From Sulfurimonas sp. HSL3-7 (lineage in GTDB: Bacteria; Campylobacterota; Campylobacteria; Campylobacterales; Sulfurimonadaceae), in contig NZ_CP147919.1 of the NCBI RefSeq assembly GCF_039645985.1, positions 1,922,001 through 1,986,000 of the forward strand: a DNA stretch of 64,000 nt, written 5' to 3'. The notes below the pieces were generated by a model, which was given only the letters and a program-made list of their open reading frames with translations, was not told the origin of the DNA and searched no databases. Made by a program: the position numbers and the translations under genes. How positions within the stretch are numbered: position 1 is the stretch's first letter; each line of letters opens with the position of its first letter. Below, in pieces: positions 3,422 to 41,818 of this stretch.

Positions 3422-4222
3422 TTACCACGCTTTGGCTAGGTAGGTAATGCTTACAAACGGTTCTAACATCGACGCAACCAGCTGAAACGGCGGTGCGATC
3501 TCATCAAAGGCGAGCTGACGTCCTTTAGATGCACGCGGCTGTACATAGACGATATCGTTCGGTTTGAGATAAAGACTTGCAATCCTGACGGCCGACATCT
3601 GGGTCAGATCGATCGTACGGACCTGTGGGTTGCGCAGGTCCCCGCGGATTACCAGGATACCCCGGCGCTCTGCATAGTCGGTCAGGTCTCCCGAACGGGC
3701 GATCGCTTCGATCAGGTTCATCGTACCGTTTGTCACCTGTACTACACCCGGCGTGTTGACCTCGCCTAAAAGAAAGATGCGCTGATTCATGATCTCTACC
3801 GTGACATACGGGGTGCGAATGTATTTCTTATACTCTTTCATTAAATACTTCGCCGCCTCGTCTTGCGTATAGCCCTCGATCTTGACACTGCCGATCAGTG
3901 GCAGATCCACCGTCCCCTCTCGCGTTACCAAAAGACCTGTCGTCTCATCGGGTACTCTGCCCCCCGTTGGCGTGCCGCGTGAACTTGAACTGATCATCGC
4001 CGTCAGCTCGCCCGGACCTGACTGATTATAAACGATGATATTCACACGGTCATTAGGCTGTATCCTGTTCTCGAATACCATCTCATCCTGATACACCTTC
4101 TCGTTTACCTCCGTCGGCTCCTCCGAACGCTCGTCGTCCTGAAACAAGGTGTACCTTTTCATACTGCACCCGGAGAAAAAAAAGAGCGCCAAAACGGTGA
4201 TCAAAATAGTTTGTCTTAACAT
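3422..4222 (-). CDS. wza: Outer-membrane polysaccharide export lipoprotein (Wza/OPX family), left copy
   Basis: This 266-residue protein is identical in sequence to the product of 41018-41818. It has a lipoprotein signal with lipobox FFSGC, a Poly_export domain in the first half (NDRVNIIVYNQSGPGEL, then DLPLIGSVKIEGYTQDEA) and an SLBB-like domain around residues 145-220 (RIFLLGEVNTPGVVQ). It is shorter than E. coli Wza and lacks an obvious C-terminal amphipathic barrel helix; the C-terminus VSITYLAKAW suggests a membrane-proximal segment. OPX proteins of this size export capsule or EPS through the periplasm together with a Wzc-like partner, here the frameshifted gene immediately downstream. 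The wbqC end of the EPS operon lies upstream, so this copy may be read through from that block or from its own promoter. Confidence 0.9.
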   Translation of the reverse strand: MLRQTILITVLALFFFSGCSMKRYTLFQDDERSEEPTEVNEKVYQDEMVFENRIQPNDRVNIIVYNQSGPGELTAMISSSSRGTPTGGRVPDETTGLLVTREGTVDLPLIGSVKIEGYTQDEAAKYLMKEYKKYIRTPYVTVEIMNQRIFLLGEVNTPGVVQVTNGTMNLIEAIARSGDLTDYAERRGILVIRGDLRNPQVRTIDLTQMSAVRIASLYLKPNDIVYVQPRASKGRQLAFDEIAPPFQLVASMLEPFVSITYLAKAW

Positions 4223-4295
4223 TTTTTCACTTTGTATTAGTTTCTGCTTTATCTCTATATTCTAACTAAATTATTTGACATTTTGGTAAAGCCTT

Positions 4296-4710
4296 TGTTC
4301 TCTTTGCAAGATTCTTTGAATTTTGACACAGTTGGGAAAAAGCTTTTTTTTTGCTTGATTGCAGCGCTCCAAAAATTATACCGGTATTAATTTTACAAGA
4401 GAAAGAGAAAGTGTTCAGAATTACAATCGATCATCTACTTTTCTGTGATGTCAGCAGAGTGAATGACAGGTTTTTAAACAATGCGGCCGTTGAAATGTCA
4501 ATTGTATTGCGTACCCGAATTGTAATAATATGCATCAGTTTTAAAGACATGTGATCACTGCCCATATCATTCACTCCACACTGGATAGACAATTAAAAAA
4601 ACAGCAGCAACAGCCTATGGCGAACAAAGATCATCGACGGATTCATATCTTAACGAGAGAAAAGAGTGTATTTTAAACAAAAAGCGTCATGATCACCATC
4701 TAATACATTT
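4296..4710. other. Non-coding gap upstream of the left wza copy
   Basis: No intact gene is visible in these 415 bp. The part next to 4295 should hold the promoter region of the left wza copy, but unlike the first 73 bp upstream of wza it is not shared with the right copy, so the two copies can have different upstream control. On the minus strand, 4431-4590 contains a short carrier-protein-like remnant described separately. Confidence 0.6.
4431..4590 (-). pseudogene. Possible remnant of an NRPS carrier-protein (PCP/ACP) domain
   Basis: The minus-strand frame reads LSIQCGVNDMGSDHMSLKL and continues with a segment ending TAALFKNLSFTLLTSQK before a stop. This follows the layout of peptidyl/acyl carrier domains (a GVND..F.LGGdS-L core followed by the I.v..LF..pT helix). 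The 'FFEL' part is missing and His stands where the phosphopantetheine-bearing Ser should be. It has no start codon of its own and upstream stops break the frame. The call rests on a short by-eye alignment. It fits with a second possible NRPS scrap at 9708-10008. Confidence 0.35.
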
Positions 4711-5412
4711 TCATATCAATGTATAACTTTTTAGCATCGTTTGGATCTTTTCTTTAGAATTGAACATCATGATATCAATAATAGAGAGAAAAGGAACGAA
4801 CACATCATCAAATTGCTTGTACTCTATAATCTTCGTATCAATAAAGTTCAGTTTCACACCAGCTTTGGCAAAGGTTTCTTTCACATAAAGCGATTGACCA
4901 CCAATGGCATTGATATAGTGATCAGCATGCAAATACTTATTTATCGCCAATACCTTCTCTTCTCCCTTTAAAGTATGGTCAATTTTCAGTGTTGATGACA
5001 CCACTATTTCAGTATCTATATCTAAATATTCCGCTACTTTCATGATGGAGTTGTAGGTATAGAAAAACAGGTTTTTTTCATCAAAGCTGAAAATAGATTC
5101 GAGCAAAGGAAATACGTCATTAAAATAGGGCGCTTTTTTGTATCCGTTCTCAATTTGACGTAAGATTTTATCTATCTGTTGGGAAGCATGGTCCGCAAGC
5201 CTTCTTTCCACGACATCAAGCTGGTAGGAATCTTTTTTCAGAGGAATGCTGAAGAGTGTTTTCTTTCCAAATAACAGAATATTATTCTTGTTAAACCAAC
5301 CCCCCTTCTCAAACTGGATATTGTCATAAACCACAAACTTGTCCACAGCATCTATCAGCTGCCAGTAACCAATATAGGGAAAAAGATAAGGTTGCATAAT
5401 AGCGATAGTCAT
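4711..5412 (-). CDS. WbqC-like protein
   Basis: This 233-residue protein begins with IMQPYLFPYIGYWQLID, the hallmark N-terminus of the WbqC family, followed by DKFVVYDNIQFEKGGWFNKN. WbqC proteins occur in O-antigen and capsule clusters, typically beside aminotransferases and dTDP-sugar genes; their reaction is not firmly established, and a role in modifying the amino group of an amino-deoxysugar is an inference from context. It is the last gene of the rfbA-rfbB-aminotransferase block. A 32-codon ORF upstream ends on an ATGA overlap with its start. No signal peptide or membrane segment is seen, so it should be cytoplasmic. Confidence 0.85.
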   Translation of the reverse strand: MTIAIMQPYLFPYIGYWQLIDAVDKFVVYDNIQFEKGGWFNKNNILLFGKKTLFSIPLKKDSYQLDVVERRLADHASQQIDKILRQIENGYKKAPYFNDVFPLLESIFSFDEKNLFFYTYNSIMKVAEYLDIDTEIVVSSTLKIDHTLKGEEKVLAINKYLHADHYINAIGGQSLYVKETFAKAGVKLNFIDTKIIEYKQFDDVFVPFLSIIDIMMFNSKEKIQTMLKSYTLI

Positions 5413-5507
5413 ATGGCCACCTTTACTTTATTTAAATGTTCTTTATTCTCAGCAGTTTTATTCTGCTCAGAATTTTTTAGATAAAGACTCACAAGTAATT
5501 TAATCAT
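5409..5507 (-). CDS. Candidate small ORF overlapping the wbqC start
   Basis: A 32-codon reading frame (MIKLLVSLYLKN...) starts 7 bp after the aminotransferase stop, preceded by a weak GAG, and ends with TGA overlapping the wbqC ATG as ATGA. The placement would suit translational coupling across the gap. It has no recognisable domain. Chance is a real alternative. Confidence 0.25.
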   Translation of the reverse strand: MIKLLVSLYLKNSEQNKTAENKEHLNKVKVAI

Positions 5508-5513
5508 ACTCTA

Positions 5514-6590
5514 TCATCGTCTCTGCTTGTGAAGTGTTTCAATGATAATTTTACTTACTGCAGCTTCAATTCCGGAATGCATAGGAACTACCAATATTCT
5601 GCCAGCGATGTCTCTAGAGTTTCTCATCACCTGACGAAGTTTTACATAAGGGAGCGTATCCAGCGAAGGATAAAAATATTGACGAGGTGAGACAGCCTCC
5701 GCAAGCAGAGCATTCCGGACATTTTCAAGTTCTTCTTCTGATCTCAAAACGATAGGAAAATAGCTGTAACTTTGTGACGCATCTTTAGTAATACGCTGCA
5801 ACTGCACATAATCCTTCAAATGTGCGGCATAATAATCATGGCTCTTCTTGCGCTGCGCAAGAATGGTATCGATCTCATCCAACACACACAACCCCATTGC
5901 CGCTTCCAGTTCATTCATTTTTGCATTAATGCCTAATGTCTTGACTGTGTTTTGATCGTCAAGACCAAAATTTCTAACGATTTTCGCTTTTTCGTACAGG
6001 TCATCATCTTTTACAACAATCGCAGCCCCTTCAATCGTATGGAAAAATTTGGTTGCATGAAAACTGATAACAGAGATGTCTCCGTAATTGAGGATGCTCT
6101 CATTTTTATACTTAACGTCGAAAGCGTGTGAAGCATCATAAATAACTTTCAAGCTATTCTTTTTTGCGATCCTGTCGATCTCTTCTATCTCGCAGGCATT
6201 ACCAAACACGTGTACCGGGACGATCGCGGAAGTCTTTACACTCAATGATTTTTCCATTTTTACAGGATCGATATTGAATGTTTCGGGGTCAATGTCTGTA
6301 AACACAGGATCCAGCCCCTCCCATTTTATGGAACTGGTGGTTGCCACAAAACTGAAAGGGGTCGTGATCACTTCACCTTTTAGTTGCAAAAGTTTATATG
6401 AGAGCTGCAGCGCGGTTGTACCGTTTGAGACGCAAAGAAGGTTTTTGACCCCAAGATGTTTCGCAAGTCTTTTTTCGAGTTCCTGCACCAATGGTCCGTT
6501 GTTCGTCAACCATCCGCTTTCATAGACCTTTTCGACATAGTTTAGAAACTTCTGTTTATCAGGGAAATATACTTTTGAAACATTAACCAT
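5514..6590 (-). CDS. DegT/DnrJ/EryC1/StrS-family sugar aminotransferase (copy 2)
   Basis: This 358-residue PLP-dependent aminotransferase has the N-terminus PDKQKFLNYVEKVYESGWLT followed by TNNGPLVQELEKRL, the cofactor-contact motif SNGTTALQLSY, YDASHAFDVKY and the PLP lysine in SFHATKFFHTIEGAA. This subgroup resembles VioA-type enzymes that convert dTDP-4-keto-6-deoxyglucose into a 4-amino sugar, which matches the rfbA-rfbB genes just upstream. It lies 40 bp downstream of a close paralogue (6631-7707) with which it shares most motifs, so it arose by tandem duplication. The two may act on different keto positions, or one may be redundant. The exact regiochemistry cannot be read from sequence. 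Confidence 0.88.
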   Translation of the reverse strand: MVNVSKVYFPDKQKFLNYVEKVYESGWLTNNGPLVQELEKRLAKHLGVKNLLCVSNGTTALQLSYKLLQLKGEVITTPFSFVATTSSIKWEGLDPVFTDIDPETFNIDPVKMEKSLSVKTSAIVPVHVFGNACEIEEIDRIAKKNSLKVIYDASHAFDVKYKNESILNYGDISVISFHATKFFHTIEGAAIVVKDDDLYEKAKIVRNFGLDDQNTVKTLGINAKMNELEAAMGLCVLDEIDTILAQRKKSHDYYAAHLKDYVQLQRITKDASQSYSYFPIVLRSEEELENVRNALLAEAVSPRQYFYPSLDTLPYVKLRQVMRNSRDIAGRILVVPMHSGIEAAVSKIIIETLHKQRR

Positions 6591-6630
6591 TATATGCCTT
6601 CATGCGTTTTGAAATCCAAGATACAGCTTT

Positions 6631-7707
6631 TTATCTACGCAACTTTTCGAGAGTTTCAACCACTATTTTGCTCACAGTAGGCTCAACCCCCGAATGCATG
6701 GGGATCACAAGGATTCTGCTCGAGATATCCCTCGAAATCGGCATAATCCTGCGCTTTTCAACATACGAAAGCGTATCGAGTGACGGATAAAAATATTGCC
6801 GCGGTGCAATATCTTTTTCAAGCAAAGCTGACCGAACTTTGTCCATCTCCTCTTCCGATCTGAAAACAATTGGGAAATAGGTATAACTCTGCGTAGCGTC
6901 TTCATTCTTTTTCTGCATTTGAATATAGTCTTTTAGCTGTTTGACATAATATTCCCTGCTTGCTTTACGCTGTTCATGGATAATGGTCTCTTCATCCAGC
7001 ATACACAGTCCCATCGCCGCTTCAAATTCGTTCATCTTCGCATTTATGCCCAACATTCCCACGGAATCAGGACCGTCTACACCATAACTTCTGACAATTT
7101 TTGCTTTTTCATACAAGGCATCATCTTTAATGACAATTGCAGCACCTTCTATGGTATGAAAAATTTTAGTCGCATGGAAACTGATAGCTGAAATATCACC
7201 GTAATTCAATATATGTTTATCTTTGTACTTGACATCAAACGCGTGTGAAGCGTCATAAATGACCTTTAAATGATGCTTATCGGCGATTTCATCGATTTTA
7301 TCAATCTCGCATGCGTTCCCAAAAACATGGCATGGAGCGATAGCACTTGTCTTCTCGGTAATGGCACTTTCAATATTTTGGGGATCAATATTGTAACTCT
7401 CGGGATCAATATCCGCAAAAACAGGGGTAAGCCCCTCAGCCGCAATTGAACTCGTCGTCGAAACAAAACTGAAAGGCGTTGTCACTACCTCCCCCTCAAG
7501 CTCAAGCAGACGGTAAGCCAGCTGTATTGCAGACGTTCCATTTGAAACACAAAGCAGGTTTTTTACCCCAAGATACTCTTCAAGTCGTTTTTCAAGCTCC
7601 TGGACCAATGGCCCGTTATTTGTTAGCCATCCGCTCTCATATATCTTGTCGACGTAGCTTTTATACTTCTCTTTATCCGGTAAATATATTTTAGTAACAT
7701 GAACCAT
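6631..7707 (-). CDS. DegT/DnrJ/EryC1/StrS-family sugar aminotransferase (copy 1)
   Basis: This is a 358-residue paralogue of 5514-6590, of identical length and colinear throughout. It carries the N-terminal PDKEKYKSYVDKIYESGWLT, CVSNGTSAIQLAYRLL, YDASHAFDVKY and the PLP lysine in SFHATKIFHTIEGAA. It should use glutamate to aminate a dTDP-keto-deoxysugar made by RfbB. Its ATG overlaps the rfbB stop by one base (TGATG), a sign of translational coupling and of a shared substrate. Both paralogues end with a KLRR/KQRR-type C-terminus right at the stop, so neither is truncated. Confidence 0.9.
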   Translation of the reverse strand: MVHVTKIYLPDKEKYKSYVDKIYESGWLTNNGPLVQELEKRLEEYLGVKNLLCVSNGTSAIQLAYRLLELEGEVVTTPFSFVSTTSSIAAEGLTPVFADIDPESYNIDPQNIESAITEKTSAIAPCHVFGNACEIDKIDEIADKHHLKVIYDASHAFDVKYKDKHILNYGDISAISFHATKIFHTIEGAAIVIKDDALYEKAKIVRSYGVDGPDSVGMLGINAKMNEFEAAMGLCMLDEETIIHEQRKASREYYVKQLKDYIQMQKKNEDATQSYTYFPIVFRSEEEMDKVRSALLEKDIAPRQYFYPSLDTLSYVEKRRIMPISRDISSRILVIPMHSGVEPTVSKIVVETLEKLRR

Positions 7708-8753
7708 CAGTTTCTCTCTTTTTTTAGATCTTTAACACTGTATTTTTTCAAATACCATTCCACTGTTTTCACTATCCCGCTTTCAAAATTCTCATCCGCT
7801 TTCCACCCAAGTTCGTTCTCGATTTTTGTCGCATCAATAGCATAACGCCTGTCGTGTCCAGCCCTATCTTCTACAAAAGATATTAGTTCATTGTAACTTT
7901 TTAATGATAATTTTTCAATCGGGTGCAATTTATCCAGGATTTCACATATTTTATGCACTATGTAATTGTTTGTACGCTCATTACGGCCTCCAATATTGTA
8001 AACCTCGCCGCTGTCCCCCTTATGGTAGACCAGATCAATACCTTTGCAGTGATCGAGTACATAGAGCCAGTCGCGGATATTCTCGCCGTCACCGTAAATA
8101 GGGATCTGCTCACCGGCAAGCGCCTTTCGAATGATGGTCGGGATCAGCTTCTCATCATGCTGCTTTGGTCCGTAGTTGTTTGAGCAGTTGGTGACAACGG
8201 TATTCATCCCATAGGTATGATGGTAGCTGCGCACAATCATATCGCTTCCTGCTTTTGATGCACTGTAGGGAGAATTCGGTGCATAGGGGGTATTTTCCGT
8301 AAAAAAGCCTTCCTCTCCCAGTGTTCCATAGACTTCATCTGTGGAGATATGATGAAAACGGCATGTCTCATATCCATCTTTGCAGACAAAAGGACCCGCC
8401 ATCCAATATTTGTACGCCACATCGATAAGCGTAAATGTACCTTTTATATTTGTCTCAATAAAGACAGCAGGATTTTTGATAGAGTTATCGACATGACTTT
8501 CCGCAGCAAAATGGATCACGCCTCGGACATCATACTTTGCAAATAGCTTCTCAACAAGTGCTCGGTCGCAGATGTCGCCTTTGACAAAAGCATAACGCCC
8601 ATCTTTTTCCACCTCTTTAAGATTGTCAAGGTTACCTGCGTAAGTAAGCAGATCGAGATTAATGATGGTATAGTCAGGATATTTTTCTAAAAAGTAGGGA
8701 ACAAAGTTAGAACCTATAAACCCTGCGCATCCCGTAACCAGAATCGTCTTCAT
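7707..8753 (-). CDS. rfbB: dTDP-glucose 4,6-dehydratase
   Basis: The 348-residue SDR-family enzyme shows the NAD-binding [10 protein letters not shown] at its N-terminus, the catalytic Asp-Glu in [15 protein letters not shown] and the Tyr-Lys pair in [10 protein letters not shown]. It converts dTDP-glucose to dTDP-4-keto-6-deoxyglucose, the branch point for rhamnose and amino-deoxysugars. No rfbC or rfbD is present nearby, and aminotransferases follow directly, so the product here is likely an aminated 6-deoxysugar rather than rhamnose. Its start overlaps the rfbA stop by 4 bp (ATGA). Length and motifs are normal for RfbB. Confidence 0.96.
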
Positions 8754-9622
8754 TGCTTTTCTTTCACCAAACCTATAAGGTACTGCCCGTAACCGCTTTT
8801 TTCAAGCGGTTTGGCGATTTCCAAAATCTTTTCTGCATCAATCCATCCGTTATTAAAAGCAATCTCTTCGAGGCATGCGATCATAAAACCCTGGCGGTCT
8901 TCAACAGTCTGAACAAAGATTCCAGCATCAAGTAAACTGCTGAGCGTCCCCGTATCCAGCCAGGCAAAGCCCCTTCCAAGCAGGTGCACTTTGAGTTGTT
9001 TTCGCTTCAGGTAAGCCTCATTGACAGAGGTTATCTCCAACTCCCCTCTGGGTGATGGCTTGATCTTTTTTGCTATCTCTATGACATCGTTATCATAAAA
9101 GTAGAGCCCGGTCACGGCAAAACTGCTTTTTGGATTTTCAGGCTTTTCTTCAATGGAGATGACTTTTCTATTCTTGTCAAATTCAACGACGCCGAAACGT
9201 TTTGGGTCCTTGACTTGATACCCGAATATAATCGCACCCTCCTTTAAATTTGCAGAATCTTTCAGCAACGGCGAAAAGGCATGACCATAAAAGATGTTAT
9301 CGCCTAAAATCAAGCAAACGCTGTCATCGCCTATGAACTCTTCGCCTAAGATAAAGGCCTGGGCCAGTCCGTCCGGAGAGGGCTGTATCTTGTACTGAAG
9401 ATGAATACCCCACTGACTGCCGTCGCCGAGAAGTTCTTCAAATCGTGACGTATCCTCAGGTGTTGAAATAATCAGTATCTCTTTGATTCCCGCCAACATC
9501 AGTACAGAGAGCGGGTAATAGACCATCGGTTTGTCATAGATCGGCAACAGCTGCTTTGAAATTACTTTGGTCATAGGGTAAAGCCGTGTCCCGCTTCCAC
9601 CGGCAAGTATTATGCCTTTCAT
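8750..9622 (-). CDS. rfbA: Glucose-1-phosphate thymidylyltransferase
   Basis: The enzyme of about 290 residues has the nucleotidyltransferase signature [20 protein letters not shown] near the N-terminus, the substrate-binding [15 protein letters not shown] and [19 protein letters not shown]. It makes dTDP-glucose from glucose-1-phosphate and dTTP, the first step of the pathway continued by rfbB. The frame is open up to 9637, but the ATG at 9622 has GGAGG nine bases upstream and gives the standard MKGIILAGG start. It is the first gene of a five-gene minus-strand block ending in wbqC. A decayed second rfbA fragment lies at 32118-32277. Confidence 0.96.
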
Positions 9623-9707
9623 TGTACAAACCTCCATCCATAAATCATTTCACTCAAAGGATGACCTAACACCGTACGTTAAGTGATTATCATATATTAA
9701 CACAAAT

Positions 9708-10216: not shown

Positions 10217-12940
10217 ATGAAAACGTTTTACCTAAGTATGTTATTCGCTTTCTTGGTGCTGTCTGGATGCAGTAGCAACAGCAGCAAGAGCAGTAACGAC
10301 AAACCGACATTAACAGAGTTCAGTGGCAATGTCGCAGAGAGTGCGGCGGTCAGTTCGGTCATCGGGAGTATCACGGTAGATGCCGGGGATTCTTCTATTA
10401 CTGCCATTGCGCTCAGCGGCACCGGCAGTACGGATTTCAGTGTCGATACCAACGGGACCATCACAGTGGCCAATGCACTTGATTTTGAAACGCAGGCGGA
10501 CTATAACCTGACGGCAGTAGCCACTAATGCAGGCGGGGAGAGTGACCCGGTCAGTGTGACGATAGCAGTCACTGATGTACCCGATGTTGTCCCGGTTCTG
10601 GCAGCATCAACGGCGACAGTAGCAGAGAATACTGCGGCTTCCGCTGTAATTGGCACCGTAACCATCACCAGTTCCGGAGATGCCCCGATCACAGGTATCA
10701 CCCTGAGCGGCAATGGCGCGGCAGACTTTGCTGTAGCAGCAGACGGTACGATCACCGTCGTCAACGCGCCGGACTTTGAAACGCGGCCGACATATTTGCT
10801 GACGGCAGAAGCGGTAAGCAATGCCGGAACCAGCGCTTCGGTTAATGTTACAATAACAGTCACCGATGTCGCCGATGTTGCGCCGATCTTGGCAGCTTCA
10901 ACTGCGACAGTAATAGAAAATAATACTACCGTTGTTGGCTCTGTAATCGTTACCAGTTCCGGAGATACCGCGATCACGGATATCACTCTTACCGGTACCG
11001 GTGCAACTGACTTTGCCGTAGCAACAGACGGTACGATCACCGTCGTCAACGTTCCGGACTTTGAAACGCAGGCTCTCTATAACCTGCAAGCTGTTGCCAC
11101 CAATGAAGCCGGAGGCAGCGCTCCGGTCGCTGTCACAATCACGGTCACCAATGATGTTGAGTCCGTTCCGGTCATTGAGGCATTTACTGGAAGCATAGCT
11201 GAAAACTCTCCAATCGGAACGGTTGTCGGAGACATTAATATTTCCGGTACCGGAGATGCAGGTATCGTTGACTCCATTGCTTTAAGCAGCGCCGACTTTA
11301 AAGCAGCAAAAGATGGCACAATTACTGTTGCGGGCGCTCTTGATTATGAAACAACACCATTCTACAGTATGAAGGCGATAGCGACCAATGCTGCCGGAGG
11401 CAGTACAGAGGTTGATGTCAACATCACCATTAACAATGTTCCCGATGTCCCGCCGACTCTTCAGCCTTTTACTCTGACAATAGCAGATGGTACTTCCGGT
11501 CACATAGGAGATATCAATATATCAGATAGTGGGGAGAGCACTGTCATACACGGCATCAGTCTCACCGGAATAGGTGCTGAGGATTTCACGGTAACACCTG
11601 AAGGCAACATCTCCACCACGGGAACTATTGACTATAAAACACGGGCAATATATAAGTTGACGGCTGTAGCAACAAGCGATGCTGGAGACAGCGCAGCAGT
11701 CCCTGTGACGATCATGGTTGATATCAAGCGTACTGCACCTGCACCCGAGACCCAGGACTATTTCGGTTCTTCGGTCGCCGTTGATGGTGCCTATGTGGTT
11801 GTCGGTGCTGAAGGTAATGCCTCAAAAGCCGGTATGGCTTATGTCCTTTACAAAGACGTAACAGGAACTTACAGCCAAGTGGCTGAGCTCAACGCCAGTG
11901 ATGCTACACTTGGCGACAAGTTTGGCATATCGGTAGCCATCAGTGGCGATTATGTGGTTGTCGGTGCGCAGCTCGCGGATACTAACGCAACGAATGCCGG
12001 TGCGGCCTATGTCTTTAAAAGGAACGCTCCAGATAACAATTATACTGAGATAGCCCTACTCACGGCCTCTGATCCTGCGGCTGATGACCATTTCGGTTTT
12101 TCAGTCGCCATCGATGGCGCCTATGTGATCGTCGGTGCCGATAATAAATCTTCTTCTGTCGACCCGGTCGGCCCGTCTACGGGTGCAGCCTATATCTTTA
12201 AAAACAATGGAGATGACACCTATACTGAGGTAAACAAGCTCACGGCCTTCGATCACGAACCAAGTGATTATTTTGGGTGGTCAGTTGACATCAACGGAGA
12301 TCATGCGATAGTCGGCGCCTGGTCAGAAAGTATGGGCGCAGATGCTGTAATTAGTGCCGGAGCGGCCTACGTCTATAAAAAGGATGCCGGTACAGGCCTT
12401 TTCAATCATGCAGACAAACTAATGGCTCCTCTTGGCGATGCCCAAGTAGGTGATAATTTCGGTTGGTCAGTGGGTATCGGCGCAAATGGAGAGTATGCAG
12501 TTGTCGGTGCCTATCACGACAATGCCAATCAAGACAGTGTCGATAAAAACAATACCGGTGCAGCCTATATCTTTAAAAACAACGGAGATGACACCTATAC
12601 CCAGACAACAAAACTTGCTGCTTCCGATGCCGTTGCAGATGATCTATTTGGTAGCGCAGTCAGCATTAGCGGAAATTATGTCCTTGTCGGCGCCAAAAGC
12701 GAAGATCCGGCCAGCGATATAAACGGCAATCGTGGTGCAGCCTATCTCTTCCAAAATGATGGAACAGGTGTCTTTACAGAAATCCTCAGATTCAAAGCTC
12801 ATGATACTGGCGCAGGAGACTATTTTGGATATTCAGTAGCCATCAGCGGTTCTGATATGGTTGTTGGTGCCAGATCTTATACCGAAAATATCATTAGCGA
12901 AATGGGTACGGTTTACCTTTTCAATTTTGAACTGAAATAA
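10217..12940 (+). CDS. Surface lipoprotein with five cadherin-like repeats and a seven-bladed FG-GAP propeller
   Basis: The 907-residue protein has a lipoprotein signal ending LVLSGCSS. Residues of about 35-510 form five repeats of roughly 95 residues with the pattern 'S.TATVAEN...DGTITV...DFET...Y.L.A.A.N.AG....V.VTITV', typical of cadherin-like or bacterial Ig-like modules. The rest, from about residue 515, holds seven repeats of the type D.FG.SVAI.G.Y.VVGA....GAAY.F, as in FG-GAP/integrin-alpha-like propellers, so a closed seven-blade ring is likely. Such proteins are outer-membrane adhesins or matrix proteins; calcium binding is common in the family but not shown here. GGAG precedes the ATG. 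The gene lies in the plus-strand insert of the EPS locus, which supports a role in adhesion or matrix structure. Confidence 0.82.
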   Translation: MKTFYLSMLFAFLVLSGCSSNSSKSSNDKPTLTEFSGNVAESAAVSSVIGSITVDAGDSSITAIALSGTGSTDFSVDTNGTITVANALDFETQADYNLTAVATNAGGESDPVSVTIAVTDVPDVVPVLAASTATVAENTAASAVIGTVTITSSGDAPITGITLSGNGAADFAVAADGTITVVNAPDFETRPTYLLTAEAVSNAGTSASVNVTITVTDVADVAPILAASTATVIENNTTVVGSVIVTSSGDTAITDITLTGTGATDFAVATDGTITVVNVPDFETQALYNLQAVATNEAGGSAPVAVTITVTNDVESVPVIEAFTGSIAENSPIGTVVGDINISGTGDAGIVDSIALSSADFKAAKDGTITVAGALDYETTPFYSMKAIATNAAGGSTEVDVNITINNVPDVPPTLQPFTLTIADGTSGHIGDINISDSGESTVIHGISLTGIGAEDFTVTPEGNISTTGTIDYKTRAIYKLTAVATSDAGDSAAVPVTIMVDIKRTAPAPETQDYFGSSVAVDGAYVVVGAEGNASKAGMAYVLYKDVTGTYSQVAELNASDATLGDKFGISVAISGDYVVVGAQLADTNATNAGAAYVFKRNAPDNNYTEIALLTASDPAADDHFGFSVAIDGAYVIVGADNKSSSVDPVGPSTGAAYIFKNNGDDTYTEVNKLTAFDHEPSDYFGWSVDINGDHAIVGAWSESMGADAVISAGAAYVYKKDAGTGLFNHADKLMAPLGDAQVGDNFGWSVGIGANGEYAVVGAYHDNANQDSVDKNNTGAAYIFKNNGDDTYTQTTKLAASDAVADDLFGSAVSISGNYVLVGAKSEDPASDINGNRGAAYLFQNDGTGVFTEILRFKAHDTGAGDYFGYSVAISGSDMVVGARSYTENIISEMGTVYLFNFELK

Positions 12941-14542: not shown

Positions 14543-14846
14543 GGATTTGTTCAAACAGCGTGCCAGCCTGTCCTCTTCAGTTGCCAAGTCGATTTGCACA
14601 GAGATCTCTTTACCCTGTGCTTCTTGTTCAATTTTACTGCACAACATTTTTAAAAAGTCATATAAATGATCGGCAACAAAGCAATATCTATAACATCGCT
14701 AAGTCCGAATGAAAAGAGATGCATAAACAGTGTGATCACCCTACTGACAACCAATCTATATCTGTTAAAAACTAAGAAGCACAAGCAAGAGACGTCAAGT
14801 TTCATCTATCTAATCTAAATAAGTAATGAATATTTAAGCTATTTTA
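14543..14846. other. Gap between the SerA-like gene and the first riboswitch unit
   Basis: About 300 bp without a supported gene. A short open frame with coding-like composition runs on the minus strand at about 14540-14700 (...IEQEAQGKEISVQIDLATEE...), but it overlaps the dehydrogenase gene and has no recognisable domain. The AT-rich stretch before 14847 leads into the promoter of the riboswitch transcript. Confidence 0.4.
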
Positions 14847-14852
14847 TATAAT
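14847..14852 (+). promoter_or_regulatory. Candidate -10 box of riboswitch unit 1
   Basis: TATAAT lies about 14 bp before the first aptamer begins. The homologous unit has CATAAT at the same relative place (17371-17376). The upstream region is AT-rich without a clear -35, as is common in Campylobacterota. Confidence 0.55.
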
Positions 14853-14865
14853 AATTCTGATTGTT

Positions 14866-14937
14866 TATGCCAAACCCGTTGTGAAGCGGGGACGGAAAGC
14901 TTCAGGTCTCTTTGATTAGAGATAGCTGGGTTGCCTT
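14866..14937 (+). promoter_or_regulatory. Cyclic di-GMP-I (GEMM-I) riboswitch aptamer 1A
   Basis: The stretch contains the GEMM-I core: GCCAAACCCG (P1b side), a GNRA-like GUGAAG loop, GGGGACGGAAAGC, a variable second hairpin (GGTCTC...GAGATAGC) and the closing GCTGGGTTGCC. These match the known class I c-di-GMP aptamer in order and spacing (the conserved A-rich J1/2 and the GGGA-CG-AAAGC block). It should bind c-di-GMP in the 5' leader of the lipoprotein gene at 15281. A second aptamer follows 94 bp later and the hairpin at 14935-14982 lies between them. Confidence 0.93.
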
Positions 14938-14982
14938 GTTTTATAAAGAAGATGATTTTACACTTTTTATTATAAAATCAAG
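14935..14982 (+). terminator. Hairpin directly after aptamer 1A, possible expression platform
   Basis: CTTGTTTTATAA pairs with TTATAAAATCAAG (one bulge), followed by CCTTTTCCCT. The 5' arm begins inside the last bases of the aptamer P1 strand. The homologous leader keeps a 14-bp stem at the same place with different bases, so the structure is conserved. It may act as a ligand-sensitive terminator; the trailing pyrimidine run is imperfect. Confidence 0.5.
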
Positions 14983-15030
14983 CCTTTTCCCTCTGAACCT
15001 TATTCCTCACATACATTATTAAATTAACTA

Positions 15031-15106
15031 GGCCAAACCCGTTGTGAAGCGGGGACGGAAAGCCACGGGTCTTATTTCATTTTTGAAAGAGATGGCTGGG
15101 TTGCAT
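15031..15106 (+). promoter_or_regulatory. Cyclic di-GMP-I (GEMM-I) riboswitch aptamer 1B
   Basis: Second aptamer of the tandem. It begins GGCCAAACCCGTTGTGAAGC, then GGGGACGGAAAGCC, a variable hairpin (CGGGTC...) and GATGGCTGGGTTGC. All conserved blocks of class I aptamers are in place. It ends in GGGTTGCATTG where its relatives have GGGTTGCC, so P1 differs slightly. Two aptamers in series usually give a steeper or more sensitive response. Confidence 0.92.
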
Positions 15107-15175
15107 TGACATGTATTCTTATTTATGTGGAATAGTAAGCATCTTCTCATCTACCTCCTTTCATCACTGTATCTA

Positions 15176-15192
15176 AGATAGCCGGGTTACCT
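15176..15192 (+). promoter_or_regulatory. Orphan GEMM-like 3' half in leader 1
   Basis: AGATAGCCGGGTTACC matches the 3' closing strand of a c-di-GMP-I aptamer, but no 5' half is found upstream. The same element and its surroundings recur at 17687-17702. It could be a truncated third aptamer, or a strand that competes for the AACCCG side of the aptamers. Confidence 0.5.
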
Positions 15193-15280
15193 CCTCTATA
15201 GATTCACATCCCAGGTTTGAATATTAAATTCTTACATGCCTTTTTGCATGAAGGTTTTATTCAAAAACAAGGATGAACTT

Positions 15281-16735
15281 TTGTACTTATCGACTAAAAA
15301 AAGTTTTTTGACATTACTCATCACAGTCGCTTTTCTGACAGGTTGTCAAGAAGATGCCAATCAAACAAGCAGCAGTACTGCACTAGCACCTAAGGTAAAG
15401 ACAACACTACCACCGGGCTTAGCTAAAAAAACTACTACAGAGACAGAACCTGTTGTTGAAGAGACACTTCCCGTTGTTGAAGAAACTCAACCTGTCGTTG
15501 AAGAGACACTTCCCGTTGTTGAAGAAACTCAACCTGTCATTGAAGAGACACTTCCCGTTGTTGAAGAAACTCAACCTGTCGTTGAAGAGACACTTCCCGT
15601 TGTTGAAGAGACACTTCCCGTTGTTGAAGAGACACAACCTGTCGTTGAAGAGACGCTACCCGTTGTGGAAGAGACACAACCTGTCGTTGAAGAGACGCTA
15701 CCTGTAGTGGAAGAGACACAACCTGTCGTTGCAGTATGTGTAGAAGGCGATGCAATGATCGAAGGCCATGTCACTGACAAAGCGACAGGCAGCGGATTAG
15801 CCGATGTGCAGATCAATGTGGGCGGATGTGCCACAGCAACCGATGAGAACGGCTATTTTACACTCTCCAACATTGCTGAAACTGAAAACGCCGTTGTCAA
15901 TTTTGAAAAAGAGGGCTACCTGCTTGGCAGTACACGTATTCAGGTTGATCTCTATGCGGAAGGTACAACCACTGCTTCTTCGAATTATCTCGAGTACGCT
16001 ATAGGTACCTATACTTCACAATGGAGTTATGACAGCCAGACCGCAGTTGCCGGTGCCCATCTTGACATACCTACTGATGTCTATGCAGATATGTCAGGTA
16101 ATGCCTATCACGGTACTGTTACTGCAGGATTAAAAATAGTGGATGTCACTACAGAGGAAGGCAAAGAACTGTTTCCAGGTACTTTTGAAGGGAAAAATGT
16201 CAATGGGGAGACAGTGTTGTTTAGCTCTTACGGCCTGATCAGCCTATCACTCAAAGATACTGGCGGTAATGCACTAAATCTTGCAGATGGCGCTACAGCA
16301 ACATTGACATTTGATGCCGTTACCTCTCTAGAAGAGAAGAACATTATTCCGCTATGGTATTATGACTACAGCCAAGGGACCTGGATCGAAGAAGGCTATG
16401 CAGAACTCCAGTCGGATGGAACATATGTGGGGAGCATTTCACACGTTGGTACATGGAGTCTAAATATGCCGCTAGAGACGTCGCCTGGCACATACCGCGG
16501 CCGAATCGTGTATAGCGATGGAGTCACGGTTAAAGATGCAAGAGTAGCTCTTATCGGACCTAACTGGATGAGAAGCGATTTGTCAACTGATGCTGATGGG
16601 CTATTTGAAGTTACCGTCGTTCCCGGTGATGATTTCCAAATTGTAGCTTATAACTATAAATGGAAATATGAAGCTGCACATGCCAACGTATTACCGGCTG
16701 TCGCTTCGGGTGAAATTGTTGAAGACAGGATCTAA
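15281..16735 (+). CDS. Riboswitch-controlled lipoprotein with 7-residue repeats and carboxypeptidase-regulatory-like domains
   Basis: The predicted product of about 484 residues has a lipoprotein signal with lipobox LTGC. Next comes a low-complexity stalk of thirteen PVVEETL/Q repeats (nt 15449-15730), then a carboxypeptidase-regulatory-like beta sandwich (GHVTDKATGSGLADVQINVG, DENGYFTLSN). A central domain follows (FPGTFEGKNV..., IPLWYYDYSQGTWIEEGYAE) that recalls ZU5/CILP-like modules, and a second regulatory-like sandwich (YRGRIVYSDGVTVKDARVAL) closes the protein. It is probably surface-exposed. The frame opens at 15236, but TTG at 15281 has AAGGA seven bases upstream and gives a normal 22-residue lipoprotein signal. 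Tandem c-di-GMP-I aptamers precede it. A paralogue without the repeats is at 17793. Confidence 0.8.
   Translation: MYLSTKKSFLTLLITVAFLTGCQEDANQTSSSTALAPKVKTTLPPGLAKKTTTETEPVVEETLPVVEETQPVVEETLPVVEETQPVIEETLPVVEETQPVVEETLPVVEETLPVVEETQPVVEETLPVVEETQPVVEETLPVVEETQPVVAVCVEGDAMIEGHVTDKATGSGLADVQINVGGCATATDENGYFTLSNIAETENAVVNFEKEGYLLGSTRIQVDLYAEGTTTASSNYLEYAIGTYTSQWSYDSQTAVAGAHLDIPTDVYADMSGNAYHGTVTAGLKIVDVTTEEGKELFPGTFEGKNVNGETVLFSSYGLISLSLKDTGGNALNLADGATATLTFDAVTSLEEKNIIPLWYYDYSQGTWIEEGYAELQSDGTYVGSISHVGTWSLNMPLETSPGTYRGRIVYSDGVTVKDARVALIGPNWMRSDLSTDADGLFEVTVVPGDDFQIVAYNYKWKYEAAHANVLPAVASGEIVEDRI
15449..15730 (+). repeat. In-frame 21-bp tandem repeat (about 13 copies)
   Basis: The unit encodes PVVEETL or PVVEETQ, with L and Q forms mostly alternating so that a 42-bp higher-order repeat is visible. 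Neighbouring units are nearly identical at DNA level, indicating recent slippage or recombination. Copy number is likely to vary between strains. Confidence 0.95.
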
Positions 16736-17370
16736 ATAACCAATTCGAGTTAATTAAATACCGCCAATGAAAAGTAAAGACAAGCGGTAACTAAAAAAGG
16801 TGGACTGTATAAAGAGCCAAATTGATTATCCGTCCAAAACGAAGGAAATCAATCTCTCAAAACAGTCGATCTAAAAAGAACGGCATCAGATCGTTTTGCC
16901 GTGAAATAATGCCACGGGGCATTGCATATGCCCGTCCAAAAAACACTCCATTGGTATATCTGCAAATATCAGTTTGCTATCGCCAACTTCTCACCTCATC
17001 TACTTATATATCAGTGTTCTGGCTCATCTGTATTGCTGCTAAATATTTTAATAGAAAAAGTATCTTTTGTACTGTCATTATTTCCGTAGAGCGTACTGCT
17101 TAAACATGTGTTGTCCTGCTTATACAGGATTATTCAAGTACGAATTTATAATCTTAAAGTGAGGGGAATTGCGTCTAGAGCGAGATTTAGTCTGATCATT
17201 CAACTCGGGCTTGTGAGCAGCTGTGATATCAGCCGACAGATTGTAGAACAGGGAATGTACTGCATCTTCCAACGCTAAACATATTCCAATTCCAGGAAAC
17301 CAGTCAGATTTGAATCGATGGGCTTTTAATCTAATTCAAATAAGTAATAAAGAATTAAGTTGTTTTATAG
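16736..17370. other. Gap between riboswitch units 1 and 2
   Basis: About 630 bp with no supported gene. A weak TACCGC/GCGGTA stem at 16759-16789 follows the lipoprotein gene. A 93-codon open frame starting with TTG at 16822 has no ribosome binding site or domain and is not called. The last part resembles the region upstream of 14847, consistent with duplication of the whole leader. Confidence 0.5.
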
Positions 17371-17376
17371 CATAAT
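17371..17376 (+). promoter_or_regulatory. Candidate -10 box of riboswitch unit 2
   Basis: CATAAT occupies the place that TATAAT takes in the first unit, and the following TCTGATTGTTTATGCC is shared by both leaders. Confidence 0.5.
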
Positions 17377-17387
17377 TCTGATTGTTT

Positions 17388-17457
17388 ATGCCAAACCCGT
17401 TGCAAAGCGGGGACGGAAAGCTTCAGGTCTCTTTGATTAGAGATAGCTGGGTTGCCT
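17388..17457 (+). promoter_or_regulatory. Cyclic di-GMP-I (GEMM-I) riboswitch aptamer 2A
   Basis: Nearly identical to aptamer 1A: ATGCCAAACCCGTTGCAAAG, GGGGACGGAAAGC, then GGTCTC...GAGATAGC and TGGGTTGCC. The first loop is GCAAAG instead of GUGAAG, still a GNRA-type loop, which supports a folded RNA. It leads the transcript of the lipoprotein and beta-helix genes at 17793-20596. Confidence 0.93.
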
Positions 17458-17504
17458 TGATTTATATTAGAAATGTAATGTACTATTATTAATATAAAAT
17501 CAAG
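17456..17504 (+). terminator. Hairpin directly after aptamer 2A, possible expression platform
   Basis: CTTGATTTATATTA pairs with TAATATAAAATCAAG (one bulge) and is followed by CTTTCTCCTC. It corresponds to 14935-14982 but with base changes on both arms that keep pairing, so the stem is under selection. Confidence 0.5.
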
Positions 17505-17541
17505 CTTTCTCCTCTGAACATTATTCCAAATAATATTTTTA

Positions 17542-17617
17542 GGCCAAACCCGTTGTGAAGCGGGGACGGAAAGCCACGGGTCTTATTCATTAATTTGAAA
17601 GAGATGGCTGGGTTGCC
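17542..17617 (+). promoter_or_regulatory. Cyclic di-GMP-I (GEMM-I) riboswitch aptamer 2B
   Basis: Second aptamer of the second tandem: GGCCAAACCCGTTGTGAAGC, GGGGACGGAAAGCC, variable hairpin, then GATGGCTGGGTTGCC. It has the canonical GGGTTGCC end that aptamer 1B lacks. Confidence 0.93.
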
Positions 17618-17686
17618 TTGATATTTCATTATTATTTATGCGGAATATTAAGTATCTTCTCACCTACCTCCTTTCATAACTGTATT

Positions 17687-17702
17687 AAGATAGCCGGGTT
17701 AC
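17687..17702 (+). promoter_or_regulatory. Orphan GEMM-like 3' half in leader 2
   Basis: AAGATAGCCGGGTTAC with its flanks is conserved with 15176-15192, while the unpaired spacer before it has small changes. Its retention in both leaders suggests function rather than random debris. Confidence 0.45.
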
Positions 17703-17792
17703 CTCCTCTATAGATTCACATCCCAGGTTTGAATATTAAATTCTTACATGCCTTTTTGCATGAAGGTTTTATTCAAAAACAAGGATGAACTT

Positions 17793-18971
17793 TTGTACTT
17801 AACTACGAAAAAAAGTTTTTTAGCACTATTAGTTGCTACAACATTTCTGACAGGTTGTCAGGAAACCTCAAATTCAACCAATGATTCGCTTGAAGTCGAC
17901 GCAAGTATAACTTCCGACTCAAATATTCCTTCCGAAACACAGTTCGACAGTGCGCCCGAAGCATCTTTGGTCGCCAAATTCGAAGGACAAGTCAAAGACA
18001 GTGTCACCGGAGAAGGTATCGAAAATGTTCAGGTCAGTGTCGGCGATGCTGTTACGACTACCGATGCAAACGGAAACTATGCACTGTTTGACGTTAACAC
18101 GACGATAAGAGCCGTTGTCACTTTTCAACATCAGAGTTATTTTCACAACTCTGCGGTCATTCAAGCCGATGAGTTTGCAGAAGGCACTGATATGCTTTCG
18201 TCAAACTATTTGGAATATGAACTTGCTCCAAATGAACAGCAAGCACCTTATTACAGCCAAGAAAGCACGGTATTAGATCTGGCTAATTCAGCCAGTATCG
18301 CTCTGCCGGCGGCGGTCTACAATGACCTTTCAGGAAATCAGTATGTTGGTGAAGTCATTCCCAACGTAGCCTATCTTGATCCAACAACAGATTCAGGTAA
18401 AGCGACTTTTCCAGGACTTTTTGAAGGAAAAGACAGCAGTGGGAACATCGCACTCTTTGGCTCTTACGGTTTAATTACTGCAACGTTGGAAGATGTAAAC
18501 GGTAATGCTCTGAGTTTAACTGACGGTGCAATGGCAACTTTAACTTTTCCAGCTATTGCCAGTTTAAAAGAAGAAAATATCATTCCACTATGGTATTATG
18601 ATTACAACCAGGGGATCTGGATTGAAGAAGGTTATGCCGAGCTTCAATCAGACGGAACCTATCAAGGAAACATTACGCACTTAGGAACGTGGAGCTTAAA
18701 TATGCCTCTTGAAAATGCTCCCGGTATTTACAGAGGTCGTATTGTTTATACGGATGGAATTACAGTTAAAGACGCAAGAGTGTCTGCTGTCGGACCAAAC
18801 TGGGTAAGAAGCGACCTCTCCACCGATGCAGACGGATTTTTTCAGATAGAAGTGCTTCCTGGGGATGATTTCAAACTCGTAGCGTATAACTACAAATGGA
18901 ACTATGAAGTCCAATCAAATAGTGTAATACCGGCAATCTCTTCGGACGAGATTGTTGAAGACAGATTATAA
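17793..18971 (+). CDS. Riboswitch-controlled lipoprotein, paralogue of 15281-16735
   Basis: The predicted product of about 392 residues has a signal ending FLTGCQE. A short Ser/Asp-rich linker replaces the VEET repeats of the paralogue. The remainder is colinear with it: a carboxypeptidase-regulatory-like domain (FEGQVKDSVTGEGIENVQVS, DANGNYALF), the central IPLWYYDYNQGIWIEEGYAE domain and the terminal YRGRIVYTDGITVKDARVSA sandwich ending EIVEDRL. TTG at 17793, with AAGGA upstream, is preferred over the ATG at 17748 for the same reason as in the paralogue. It is separated from the next gene by 17 bp, so the tandem c-di-GMP riboswitch should control both. The role is probably structural or adhesive at the cell surface. 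Confidence 0.8.
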   Translation: MYLTTKKSFLALLVATTFLTGCQETSNSTNDSLEVDASITSDSNIPSETQFDSAPEASLVAKFEGQVKDSVTGEGIENVQVSVGDAVTTTDANGNYALFDVNTTIRAVVTFQHQSYFHNSAVIQADEFAEGTDMLSSNYLEYELAPNEQQAPYYSQESTVLDLANSASIALPAAVYNDLSGNQYVGEVIPNVAYLDPTTDSGKATFPGLFEGKDSSGNIALFGSYGLITATLEDVNGNALSLTDGAMATLTFPAIASLKEENIIPLWYYDYNQGIWIEEGYAELQSDGTYQGNITHLGTWSLNMPLENAPGIYRGRIVYTDGITVKDARVSAVGPNWVRSDLSTDADGFFQIEVLPGDDFKLVAYNYKWNYEVQSNSVIPAISSDEIVEDRL

Positions 18972-18988
18972 AGAAATAAGGATCAATA

Positions 18989-20596
18989 ATGCGTAACAAA
19001 ACAAATACCTTAAATTCACTAAAAATCGGATTGTTAAGTTTGATGTTCATATTAAGCAGTAATGCTTTTGCAGCAGATAGTGAATATCTTGAAAATATAA
19101 CACTTCCGGAATGCGATGCCACCAATCCCGAAGTACAGTTCATCAGCAGCAACGCTGACTGGAGTAAAATAAATGACAGCAGCAAAAGTATCTTCTGTGT
19201 TAAGCCGGGTGATTACCGAAGTGCCGGAAAGATAACATTGTCTGCCGATGGCTCAAGTGCAAAACGCAGATATATTGTTCTTGACAACGGAAACGATACA
19301 CATCCTGCAAAACTTGAAACTTCAGAGCAGGCAAATGTTTGGTTATCTTTTGATAATGGTGGGAGCTATTGGGTAATTGATAGAATCTCATCCCTTTCTG
19401 TTGATACTGGAAGCGCAGAGAAGCTATATAGATTTTATGGTGGCGCTTCCAATAACATCCTAAACAGACTCCATATTACAGACCTTAAGGATCATGGAAT
19501 AGCCTTTTATCATGGCTGCGATAATAATACAATACAGAACAGCCGTATAGCAGATATGTCATTGGGAGGAAGACAAAGGGATAGAGTCGCAATTTTACTT
19601 TCAAATAGTATAACCGACGGAAGCACTACTCTCAACACAAAGATAATTAACAATGAAATTGTTAATGCATGTGATGCTATTCAACTTACAAGAGCAGACG
19701 ATGGGACTTACACTAATGTAAATTTTGCTGGTACAATAATTGACAATAACCTGCTCTGGATAACACCTGATATATATACCGATGAAGAGCATGCTTGGGC
19801 TGAAAACGCCATTGATCTCAAAGCCGGTTCTAAAGATACGGCCAATCCTGTAGTTATTACAAACAATAAAATGTGGGGATTTAGACACAACTCCAGTGGT
19901 AGCGGACAAGGTAAAGCTGTAACGATTCACTTTGGTGTTCCAAATCTTGTCTTTGAAAACAACTACATCATGGATTCTGAGTGGGGAATTTCTTTGTCTA
20001 CCAGCAGAGACAATGACATTCCCTATCCTGCTATGAATGCATTATTTAAACACAATGTGTTTTATAAAGTAAATAAAACTGTAGACGGAGACACACCCTA
20101 TGTTATGTTCTCGTATGCTTGTAATAACATTCGTATTGAAGAAAACGTATGGGTCGGTTCACTAACGGGTTATGCCATGAGATTTGAAAACAACTCGGGA
20201 GACACAACATTCAAAAACAATGTATTGATTTCCTCAGGACAAACTGCCCATGTAAGCGGTGTGCTCGAAGCCTCAGGCAACTACTACTATGATACATCAA
20301 ATGGAATCAAAGGCACAGGAGATATCAGTTATGCTAATGCCTCCGATGCTAAAATGGGGGATTACACCTTCAACTATGATCTTTTTACCAATAACCCAAA
20401 ACAAATAACACTTGTTGGCGTAGTTACTACTTCTTTAAGCCCGCATGCAAATCTTGCAGGTATTCCTGATGCTCCAGTCAGCGAAGAACCGGTTGCTGAA
20501 GAACCAGTTGCTGTAGAACCCGTTACGGTAGAGCCAGTTACGGTAGAACCAACAGGGCCGTGGATAATGGATTATCAGAATAAAGAATTGAAATAA
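18989..20596 (+). CDS. Secreted right-handed parallel beta-helix protein
   Basis: The 535-residue protein has a Sec signal peptide (LSLMFILSSNAFA). The body is rich in the N-x-I / NNxI-type turns of parallel beta-helices (ILNRLHITDLKDHGIAFYHG, DNNTIQNSRIADMSL, VITNNKMWGF, VFENNYIMDSEWGISL, FKNNVLISSG). This fold is common in polysaccharide lyases, epimerases and phage-like depolymerases; specific catalytic residues could not be assigned. The C-terminus has a proline-rich EEPVAEEPVAVEPVTVEPV tract reminiscent of the repeat stalk in the protein at 15281. AAGGA lies before the ATG, 17 bp after the upstream lipoprotein, so it is in the c-di-GMP-riboswitch unit. It may trim, modify or bind the EPS made by the surrounding locus. 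Confidence 0.75.
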   Translation: MRNKTNTLNSLKIGLLSLMFILSSNAFAADSEYLENITLPECDATNPEVQFISSNADWSKINDSSKSIFCVKPGDYRSAGKITLSADGSSAKRRYIVLDNGNDTHPAKLETSEQANVWLSFDNGGSYWVIDRISSLSVDTGSAEKLYRFYGGASNNILNRLHITDLKDHGIAFYHGCDNNTIQNSRIADMSLGGRQRDRVAILLSNSITDGSTTLNTKIINNEIVNACDAIQLTRADDGTYTNVNFAGTIIDNNLLWITPDIYTDEEHAWAENAIDLKAGSKDTANPVVITNNKMWGFRHNSSGSGQGKAVTIHFGVPNLVFENNYIMDSEWGISLSTSRDNDIPYPAMNALFKHNVFYKVNKTVDGDTPYVMFSYACNNIRIEENVWVGSLTGYAMRFENNSGDTTFKNNVLISSGQTAHVSGVLEASGNYYYDTSNGIKGTGDISYANASDAKMGDYTFNYDLFTNNPKQITLVGVVTTSLSPHANLAGIPDAPVSEEPVAEEPVAVEPVTVEPVTVEPTGPWIMDYQNKELK

Positions 20597-41017: not shown

Positions 41018-41818
41018 TTACCACGCTTTGGCTAGGTAGGTAATGCTTACAAACGGTTCTAACATCGACGCAACCAGCTGAAACGGCGGTGCGATCTCAT
41101 CAAAGGCGAGCTGACGTCCTTTAGATGCACGCGGCTGTACATAGACGATATCGTTCGGTTTGAGATAAAGACTTGCAATCCTGACGGCCGACATCTGGGT
41201 CAGATCGATCGTACGGACCTGTGGGTTGCGCAGGTCCCCGCGGATTACCAGGATACCCCGGCGCTCTGCATAGTCGGTCAGGTCTCCCGAACGGGCGATC
41301 GCTTCGATCAGGTTCATCGTACCGTTTGTCACCTGTACTACACCCGGCGTGTTGACCTCGCCTAAAAGAAAGATGCGCTGATTCATGATCTCTACCGTGA
41401 CATACGGGGTGCGAATGTATTTCTTATACTCTTTCATTAAATACTTCGCCGCCTCGTCTTGCGTATAGCCCTCGATCTTGACACTGCCGATCAGTGGCAG
41501 ATCCACCGTCCCCTCTCGCGTTACCAAAAGACCTGTCGTCTCATCGGGTACTCTGCCCCCCGTTGGCGTGCCGCGTGAACTTGAACTGATCATCGCCGTC
41601 AGCTCGCCCGGACCTGACTGATTATAAACGATGATATTCACACGGTCATTAGGCTGTATCCTGTTCTCGAATACCATCTCATCCTGATACACCTTCTCGT
41701 TTACCTCCGTCGGCTCCTCCGAACGCTCGTCGTCCTGAAACAAGGTGTACCTTTTCATACTGCACCCGGAGAAAAAAAAGAGCGCCAAAACGGTGATCAA
41801 AATAGTTTGTCTTAACAT
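41018..41818 (-). CDS. wza: Outer-membrane polysaccharide export lipoprotein (Wza/OPX family), right copy
   Basis: The same 266-residue protein as at 3422-4222: lipobox FFSGC, Poly_export domain (NDRVNIIVYNQSGPGEL) and one SLBB-like domain (RIFLLGEVNTPGVVQ). It is the first gene of the long minus-strand EPS operon and should be co-translated with the intact wzc. Its promoter region differs from the left copy beyond 73 bp, so the two may be expressed under different conditions. Confidence 0.93.
   Translation of the reverse strand: MLRQTILITVLALFFFSGCSMKRYTLFQDDERSEEPTEVNEKVYQDEMVFENRIQPNDRVNIIVYNQSGPGELTAMISSSSRGTPTGGRVPDETTGLLVTREGTVDLPLIGSVKIEGYTQDEAAKYLMKEYKKYIRTPYVTVEIMNQRIFLLGEVNTPGVVQVTNGTMNLIEAIARSGDLTDYAERRGILVIRGDLRNPQVRTIDLTQMSAVRIASLYLKPNDIVYVQPRASKGRQLAFDEIAPPFQLVASMLEPFVSITYLAKAW

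Follow-up and report, generated by a model that had tools for sequence, protein, structure and literature searches.

The question raised by this locus is how the second messenger cyclic di-GMP (c-di-GMP) might act directly on genes for secreted proteins that lie among genes for exopolysaccharide (EPS) synthesis. The locus is part of a 64,000 nt stretch of the Sulfurimonas sp. HSL3-7 genome (the window: NZ_CP147919.1, positions 1,922,001–1,986,000; positions below are those of the window unless stated otherwise), in which two lipoprotein genes on the forward strand, the second followed by a gene for a right-handed beta-helix protein, are each preceded by a leader containing two c-di-GMP-I riboswitch aptamers in series. 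After its second aptamer, each leader repeats the 3' half of the aptamer once more (AAGATAGCCGGGTTACCTCC), without any 5' half; we call this extra copy B*. We think it probable that these are tandem c-di-GMP-I riboswitches controlling secreted proteins in an EPS locus, with ligand binding read out by a strand exchange involving B*.

Aptamers were called with Rfam covariance models at gathering thresholds (35 bits for RF01051 and 59 bits for RF03167). The forward strand of the window contains four aptamers of the c-di-GMP-I clan, forming two tandem pairs, at 60–66 bits and E-values of 1.4e-10 or better. In unit 1 these are aptamer 1 (14860–14939; 62.7 bits with RF03167, 62.4 with RF01051 alone) and aptamer 2 (15022–15108; 65.6 bits with RF01051, and 56.7 with RF03167, under its threshold); in unit 2 they are aptamer 1, the third of the window (17381–17460; 62.5 bits with RF03167, 64.1 with RF01051 alone), and aptamer 2 (17534–17621; 60.4 and 62.4 bits, respectively). 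A sequence-only reading of this DNA had placed four class I (GEMM-I) aptamers at 14866, 15031, 17388 and 17542 and expected RF01051 to recover them; all four pass the gathering thresholds at matching places, and RF01051 by itself gives four significant matches of 62.4–65.6 bits. The sole other c-di-GMP-I aptamer in the 2.87 Mb genome lies at genome positions 1729622–1729696 on the reverse strand (RF01051, 45 bits).

The best-scoring model for three of the four aptamers is RF03167, the 'GGC' variant (60.4–62.7 bits), which raises the alternative that these RNAs have altered specificity, of the GGC or the cGAMP type, and do not sense c-di-GMP. However, the covariance-model alignments show GACGGAAAGC, in which the adenine replaced in the GGC consensus GACGCGAA (GACGCGAAgC) is still A, so that the A47 to G change that distinguishes RF03167, as read from the family name and consensus, is absent from the window aptamers. 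The position equivalent to Vc2 G20 is likewise G in all four, and not the A of cGAMP-type GEMM-Ib aptamers. The nucleotides that we take to form the ligand core of the class, G20, A47 and C92 in Vc2 numbering, have equivalents in all four alignments, the C adjoining C92 being A in aptamer 2. Since the adenine and G20 are kept, and RF01051 scores are 62–66 bits, the aptamers are ordinary members of c-di-GMP-I as judged by their ligand core, as the sequence-only reading had proposed, and altered specificity appears extremely unlikely. They share with RF01051 its sequence, fold, core nucleotides, position in a 5' leader (aptamer 2 ends ~170 nt before the likely TTG start codons at 15281 and 17793) and secreted or surface target genes, while the leaders differ in having two aptamers each and an orphan 3' half downstream.

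How unusual is such a leader? Each has two complete aptamers of the same class in series before one gene, and neither is a triplet, as the third aptamer is represented by its 3' half only. Tandem riboswitches of class c-di-GMP-I have been described before: 347 doublets, the most of any riboswitch class, and 12 triplets have been reported, with a triplet in B. thuringiensis also cited (PMC9481103). There too near-identical aptamers stand in series before one gene, with a sharper response expected, whereas the window leaders have no clear terminator after either aptamer, are duplicated 2.5 kb apart in one locus and carry the orphan half. In the tandem c-di-GMP-II riboswitches that precede genes for surface anchor proteins (PMC9481103), the same second messenger, a tandem arrangement and surface-protein targets likewise come together, but the aptamer class and the host phylum are different.

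Among related genomes, c-di-GMP-I aptamers were found in 47 of 151 in a sample of the family and 76 of 399 in a sample of the order. Four Campylobacterales genomes of one genus (g61; G429, G567, G675 and G701) have ten aptamers each, a large riboswitch regulon in a single genus. The 122 testable aptamers of the order include nine doublets: the two described here, one in a Sulfurovum metagenome-assembled genome (L093) and six others (the ninth being in G610), and the genes that follow doublets seem, from the N-termini of their products, to encode secreted proteins or lipoproteins. Given the published doublets and these six others, the description of tandem pairs as less common in the sequence-only reading does not stand. 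Two doublets within one locus were seen in the window only, among the order sample. Paired aptamers are common and the half-aptamer is an unusual addition; what is new is the orphan half and the repeated, EPS-linked arrangement.

The B* strands lie at 15175–15194 in unit 1 and 17687–17706 in unit 2; within them the copied 3' half spans 15176–15190 and 17688–17702. Across the genome there are exactly six occurrences of the 3'-half motif AGAYNGCYGGGTTRC, three in each leader, compared to none in a reversed control, and shuffles of the window never produce it. When each of the 122 testable aptamers was compared with the sequence that follows it, 13 had their 3' half repeated there at p ≤ 0.01, nine of these copies being complete second aptamers and four being orphans. 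In addition to the two window leaders, the orphans comprise two loci of another Sulfurovaceae genus (g12; L025 and L027), in which the 3' half follows a single aptamer by 27–30 nt and precedes unrelated secreted proteins. A phylum-wide DNA pattern for an aptamer with an orphan half matched none of 397 genomes, a weak negative as the two positive genomes were outside the sample and the pattern excludes the spacing found in the window.

Predicted folds suggest what B* might do. Strand A (15051–15073, GGGGACGGAAAGCCACGGGTCTT) contains the core and the 5' strand of helix P3 of aptamer 2 in unit 1, strand B (15085–15104, GAAAGAGATGGCTGGGTTGC) is its native 3' half, and a pyrimidine-rich strand B', complementary to B, lies between the aptamer and B* (15146–15165, CTCATCTACCTCCTTTCATC, in unit 1; 17659–17678, CTCACCTACCTCCTTTCATA, in unit 2). 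In the ligand-free minimum-energy folds of both units the pairings are A:B* and B:B', with predicted duplex energies of -19.6 kcal/mol for A:B* compared to -12.8 and -15.9 kcal/mol for A:B in the two units. When folding of the growing transcript was modelled, structures retaining the aptamer were within ~3 kcal/mol of the optimum before B* and 5.6–8.7 kcal/mol behind it afterwards. With 160 nt of downstream sequence the gap reached 11.8 and 13.8 kcal/mol, compared to ~4.1 in shuffles of the whole downstream region (p = 0.033 and 0.016). Shuffling B* lowered the gap from 6.3 and 8.0 to 3.2; shuffling either B* or B' roughly halved it, and control segments reduced it less. As in the absence of ligand B* is predicted to capture the 5' strand of aptamer 2, it is plausibly a switching strand. 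In a separate observation, the ligand-free fold predicted for L093 (5640–6020) has its two near-identical tandem aptamers paired with one another, as in a domain swap.

Several results weigh against a switching role. In 8% and 4% of B* shuffles, for the two units, the native gap was matched, and this together with the whole-downstream p-values leaves the exchange with moderate support. The B:B' duplex taken alone falls within the shuffle range (p = 0.55 in unit 1 and 0.12 in unit 2), no covariation was found between the two units in the exchange helices, the orphan half is absent from L093 and from the other doublets, and that of L025 gives no predicted refolding. This last result, the rarity of orphans (four of 122 aptamers) and the existence of published triplets are compatible with a simpler explanation, that these are ordinary, pseudo-cooperative tandem riboswitches in which B* has no function and is what remains of a third aptamer after loss of the 5' half. 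Against a relic, B* is identical between the units whereas the linker between the aptamers has diverged to 66% identity; in each of the four orphans it is the 3' half that is kept, and no 5' half can be recognised; and A pairs more strongly with B* than with its native strand. The identity is not confined to B*, as the region from B* to the TTG is the same at 110 of 110 positions (73% identity in the signal-peptide coding sequence), and could also be explained by recent gene conversion. On balance we consider a relic somewhat unlikely, and we favour B* as a working part of the leader.

If B* does act as a switching strand, c-di-GMP bound to aptamer 2 would let it retain its own P3 helix (A:B), and without ligand B' would pair with B while B* captures A, dismantling the aptamer; two aptamers in series would probably sharpen the dose response. 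More specifically, we tentatively suggest, with rather less than even confidence, that the orphan half is a self-mimicking expression platform, comprising a stronger second 3' strand and an antisense of the first, in which ligand selects the copy that is joined to the shared 5' strand.

No convincing intrinsic terminator was found, a scan giving four sites compared to 2.6 expected by chance, and for this reason we infer that the readout is at translation, with readout through Rho or RNA decay also possible. Transcription attenuation would place it at a weak hairpin (CATGCCTTTTTGCATG, then AAGGTTTTAT; 15235–15250 and 17747–17762), a terminator-like match kept in both leaders; however, its stem has 5 bp, its T run is interrupted and the number of sites is close to chance, making attenuation very unlikely. 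Translational control would act on a start that, from the sequence, is likely to be the TTG preceded by a Shine-Dalgarno-like AAGGA (15269–15283 for lipoprotein 1 and 17781–17795 for lipoprotein 2), instead of the first ATG, in both genes; the 45 nt from the first ATG to the TTG are identical in both units, and translation from the TTG places an LTGC lipobox within the first 22 residues. A further point against the exchange is that the AAGGA site lies inside a local hairpin in both predicted states, so the predicted fold is silent on how exchange would reach translation. A variant in which B* frees the AAGGA by pairing with CCCAGG was rejected, as this pairing is absent from constrained folds, and the CCTCC segments are not favoured as mainly anti-Shine-Dalgarno elements, as they also pair with G-rich aptamer strands.

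Whether c-di-GMP would raise or lower expression is likewise not dictated by the fold. Secreted proteins of the biofilm type are usually raised by c-di-GMP, and by analogy with the biology of matrix proteins we lean towards an ON switch as the probable polarity. The opposite arrangement would be an OFF switch in which ligand frees B' (CUCCUUUCA, resembling the anti-Shine-Dalgarno end of 16S rRNA), thus blocking the ribosome site. The rise in predicted accessibility of B' (15158–15163 and 17668–17676) when both aptamers are formed is the most consistent change in both units and is in keeping with this, but the AAGGA is locally base-paired whichever state is formed and the usual response of such proteins points the other way; we regard an OFF switch as unlikely.

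The leaders appear to head separate transcription units. A gap of 645 nt separates the stop at 16735 from the third aptamer of the window, and the blocks just 5' of the two leaders (14806–14859, which includes a TATAAT-like TTTTATATAATAATTCTG, and 17327–17380) are 80% identical, compared to 38% farther upstream. The proposal of two transcription units in the sequence-only reading is supported by this spacing and similarity, but gained nothing from a promoter scan, the result of which was within chance expectation. Between aptamers 1 and 2 of unit 1 a linker hairpin is predicted (14935–14982, CTTGTTTTATAA...TTATAAAATCAAG), and its counterpart in unit 2 (17456–17504) retains a longer stem although the linkers differ. 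In a pseudo-cooperative tandem riboswitch each aptamer would have its own expression platform; here, pairing of aptamer 1 with the linker exceeds that in shuffles in unit 2 (p = 0.02), and not in unit 1.

What, then, is being controlled? Lipoprotein 1 (15281–16735, forward strand; the ORF was called from ATG 15236) has an LTGC lipobox (FLTGC), acidic VEETLPVVEETQP repeats and a CarboxypepD_reg domain (PF13620, 4.4e-11), and lipoprotein 2 (17793–18971, forward) has an LTGC lipobox and two stretches of CarboxypepD_reg domains (PF13620, 2.8e-12). Tandem repeats of the VEETLPVVEETQP type occupy 15460–15740 in lipoprotein 1 and are absent from lipoprotein 2. The beta-helix gene (18989–20596, forward; PF13229, 3.2e-6) begins 17 nt after lipoprotein 2, on the same transcript. 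With 58% identity over 332 aa between the lipoproteins, the paralogy that had been proposed for them is borne out, as is the presence of a beta-helix protein under the second aptamer pair. An AlphaFold model of the latter, from a two-sequence input, was weak (pLDDT 54.5, pTM 0.65); its best Foldseek matches in PDB were alginate lyase, GH87 glucanase, V. cholerae RbmB and AlgE4 epimerase (E-values 2e-4 to 8e-4, TM-score ~0.3), and a PDB sequence search with the beta-helix pair returned weak, chance-like matches only (best E-value 0.033, to lectins). The protein could therefore be a polysaccharide-active, EPS-modifying enzyme, although the models say little beyond a beta-helix fold. All three products may be matrix proteins, an EPS-modifying enzyme being equally possible for the beta-helix protein. 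The arrangement recalls the vps/rbm biofilm matrix cluster of Vibrio cholerae, in which, as we understand it, genes for secreted proteins and a beta-helix protein similarly lie between polysaccharide operons, and RbmB was matched weakly in structure; it differs in that no sequence homology was shown and control in the window is through RNA leaders.

Polysaccharide genes on the opposite strand flank both sides of the units, placing them within an EPS locus as first described. On one side (3422–9637) they encode Wza-type export, WbqC, two DegT, GDP-mannose-dehydratase-like and nucleotidyltransferase proteins, and on the other (20706–41818) glycosyltransferases, heparinase II/III-like, Wzy_C, flippase-like, UDP-sugar dehydrogenase, Wzc-like and Wza proteins. 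The Rfam scan of the window found no c-di-GMP-I aptamer at any EPS gene, and control of the matrix proteins alongside EPS, the other half of the original suggestion, was therefore not shown. The two Wza-type export proteins, one per end of the EPS region (3422–4222 and 41018–41818, reverse strand), are identical at 266 of 266 residues, which by sequence marks a recent duplication or conversion, and the adjacent DegT/DnrJ aminotransferase genes (5514–7707, reverse) encode proteins of equal length, 358 aa each. Located 5' of both units (10217–12940, forward) is a gene for a 907-aa cadherin/FG-GAP lipoprotein-like protein, before which Rfam places no aptamer. In its FG-GAP part this protein shares 42% identity with the one encoded behind the genome's fifth c-di-GMP-I aptamer.

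The arrangement extends to relatives. In L093 two c-di-GMP-I aptamers precede a lipoprotein gene and then a beta-helix gene (42% identity in each product), convergent to EPS genes that include a glycosyltransferase with 58% identity. On this sequence comparison the tandem arrangement is common to at least two species, and the synteny of tandem pair, lipoprotein and beta-helix genes and EPS glycosyltransferase supports a functional link. Another genome (G008) has the lipoprotein and beta-helix genes on a contig broken upstream; a third (G012) has a single aptamer before the lipoprotein gene, adjoining a Wzc-like gene; and in a fourth (G024) the lipoprotein gene is near the same heparinase and glycosyltransferase genes, with no aptamer found on searching. 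The gene context is thus wider than the riboswitch. In a further locus (L103, 691–1173, reverse strand) a 160-aa ORF lies under one aptamer; it matches DUF4214 weakly, contains short tandem repeats and continues into the frame of the lipoprotein, possibly through a frameshift or fusion.

The literature that we searched contains almost nothing on riboswitches that control secreted proteins in Campylobacterota. The tandem riboswitches of this locus are real and make functional sense, and a switching role for B* is plausible on the basis of predicted folding. If correct, it would be an exchange among four strands, found in two duplicate leaders and perhaps of separate origin in another genus, and a form of riboswitch wiring of which we found no description; the duplicate leaders, conserved EPS synteny and orphan half provide a compact test of a riboswitch that uses a copy of itself as its expression platform. 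The fifth aptamer of the genome (locus L083, genome positions 1724000–1731500) leads a gene for a 1172-aa surface protein that contains three near-identical golvesin/PKD-like repeats as well as seven FG-GAP repeats; an OmpA-family gene comes next. The genome gives 37 matches to GGDEF and 19 to EAL but none to PilZ, so that RNA receptors may be a main direct output of c-di-GMP in this organism.

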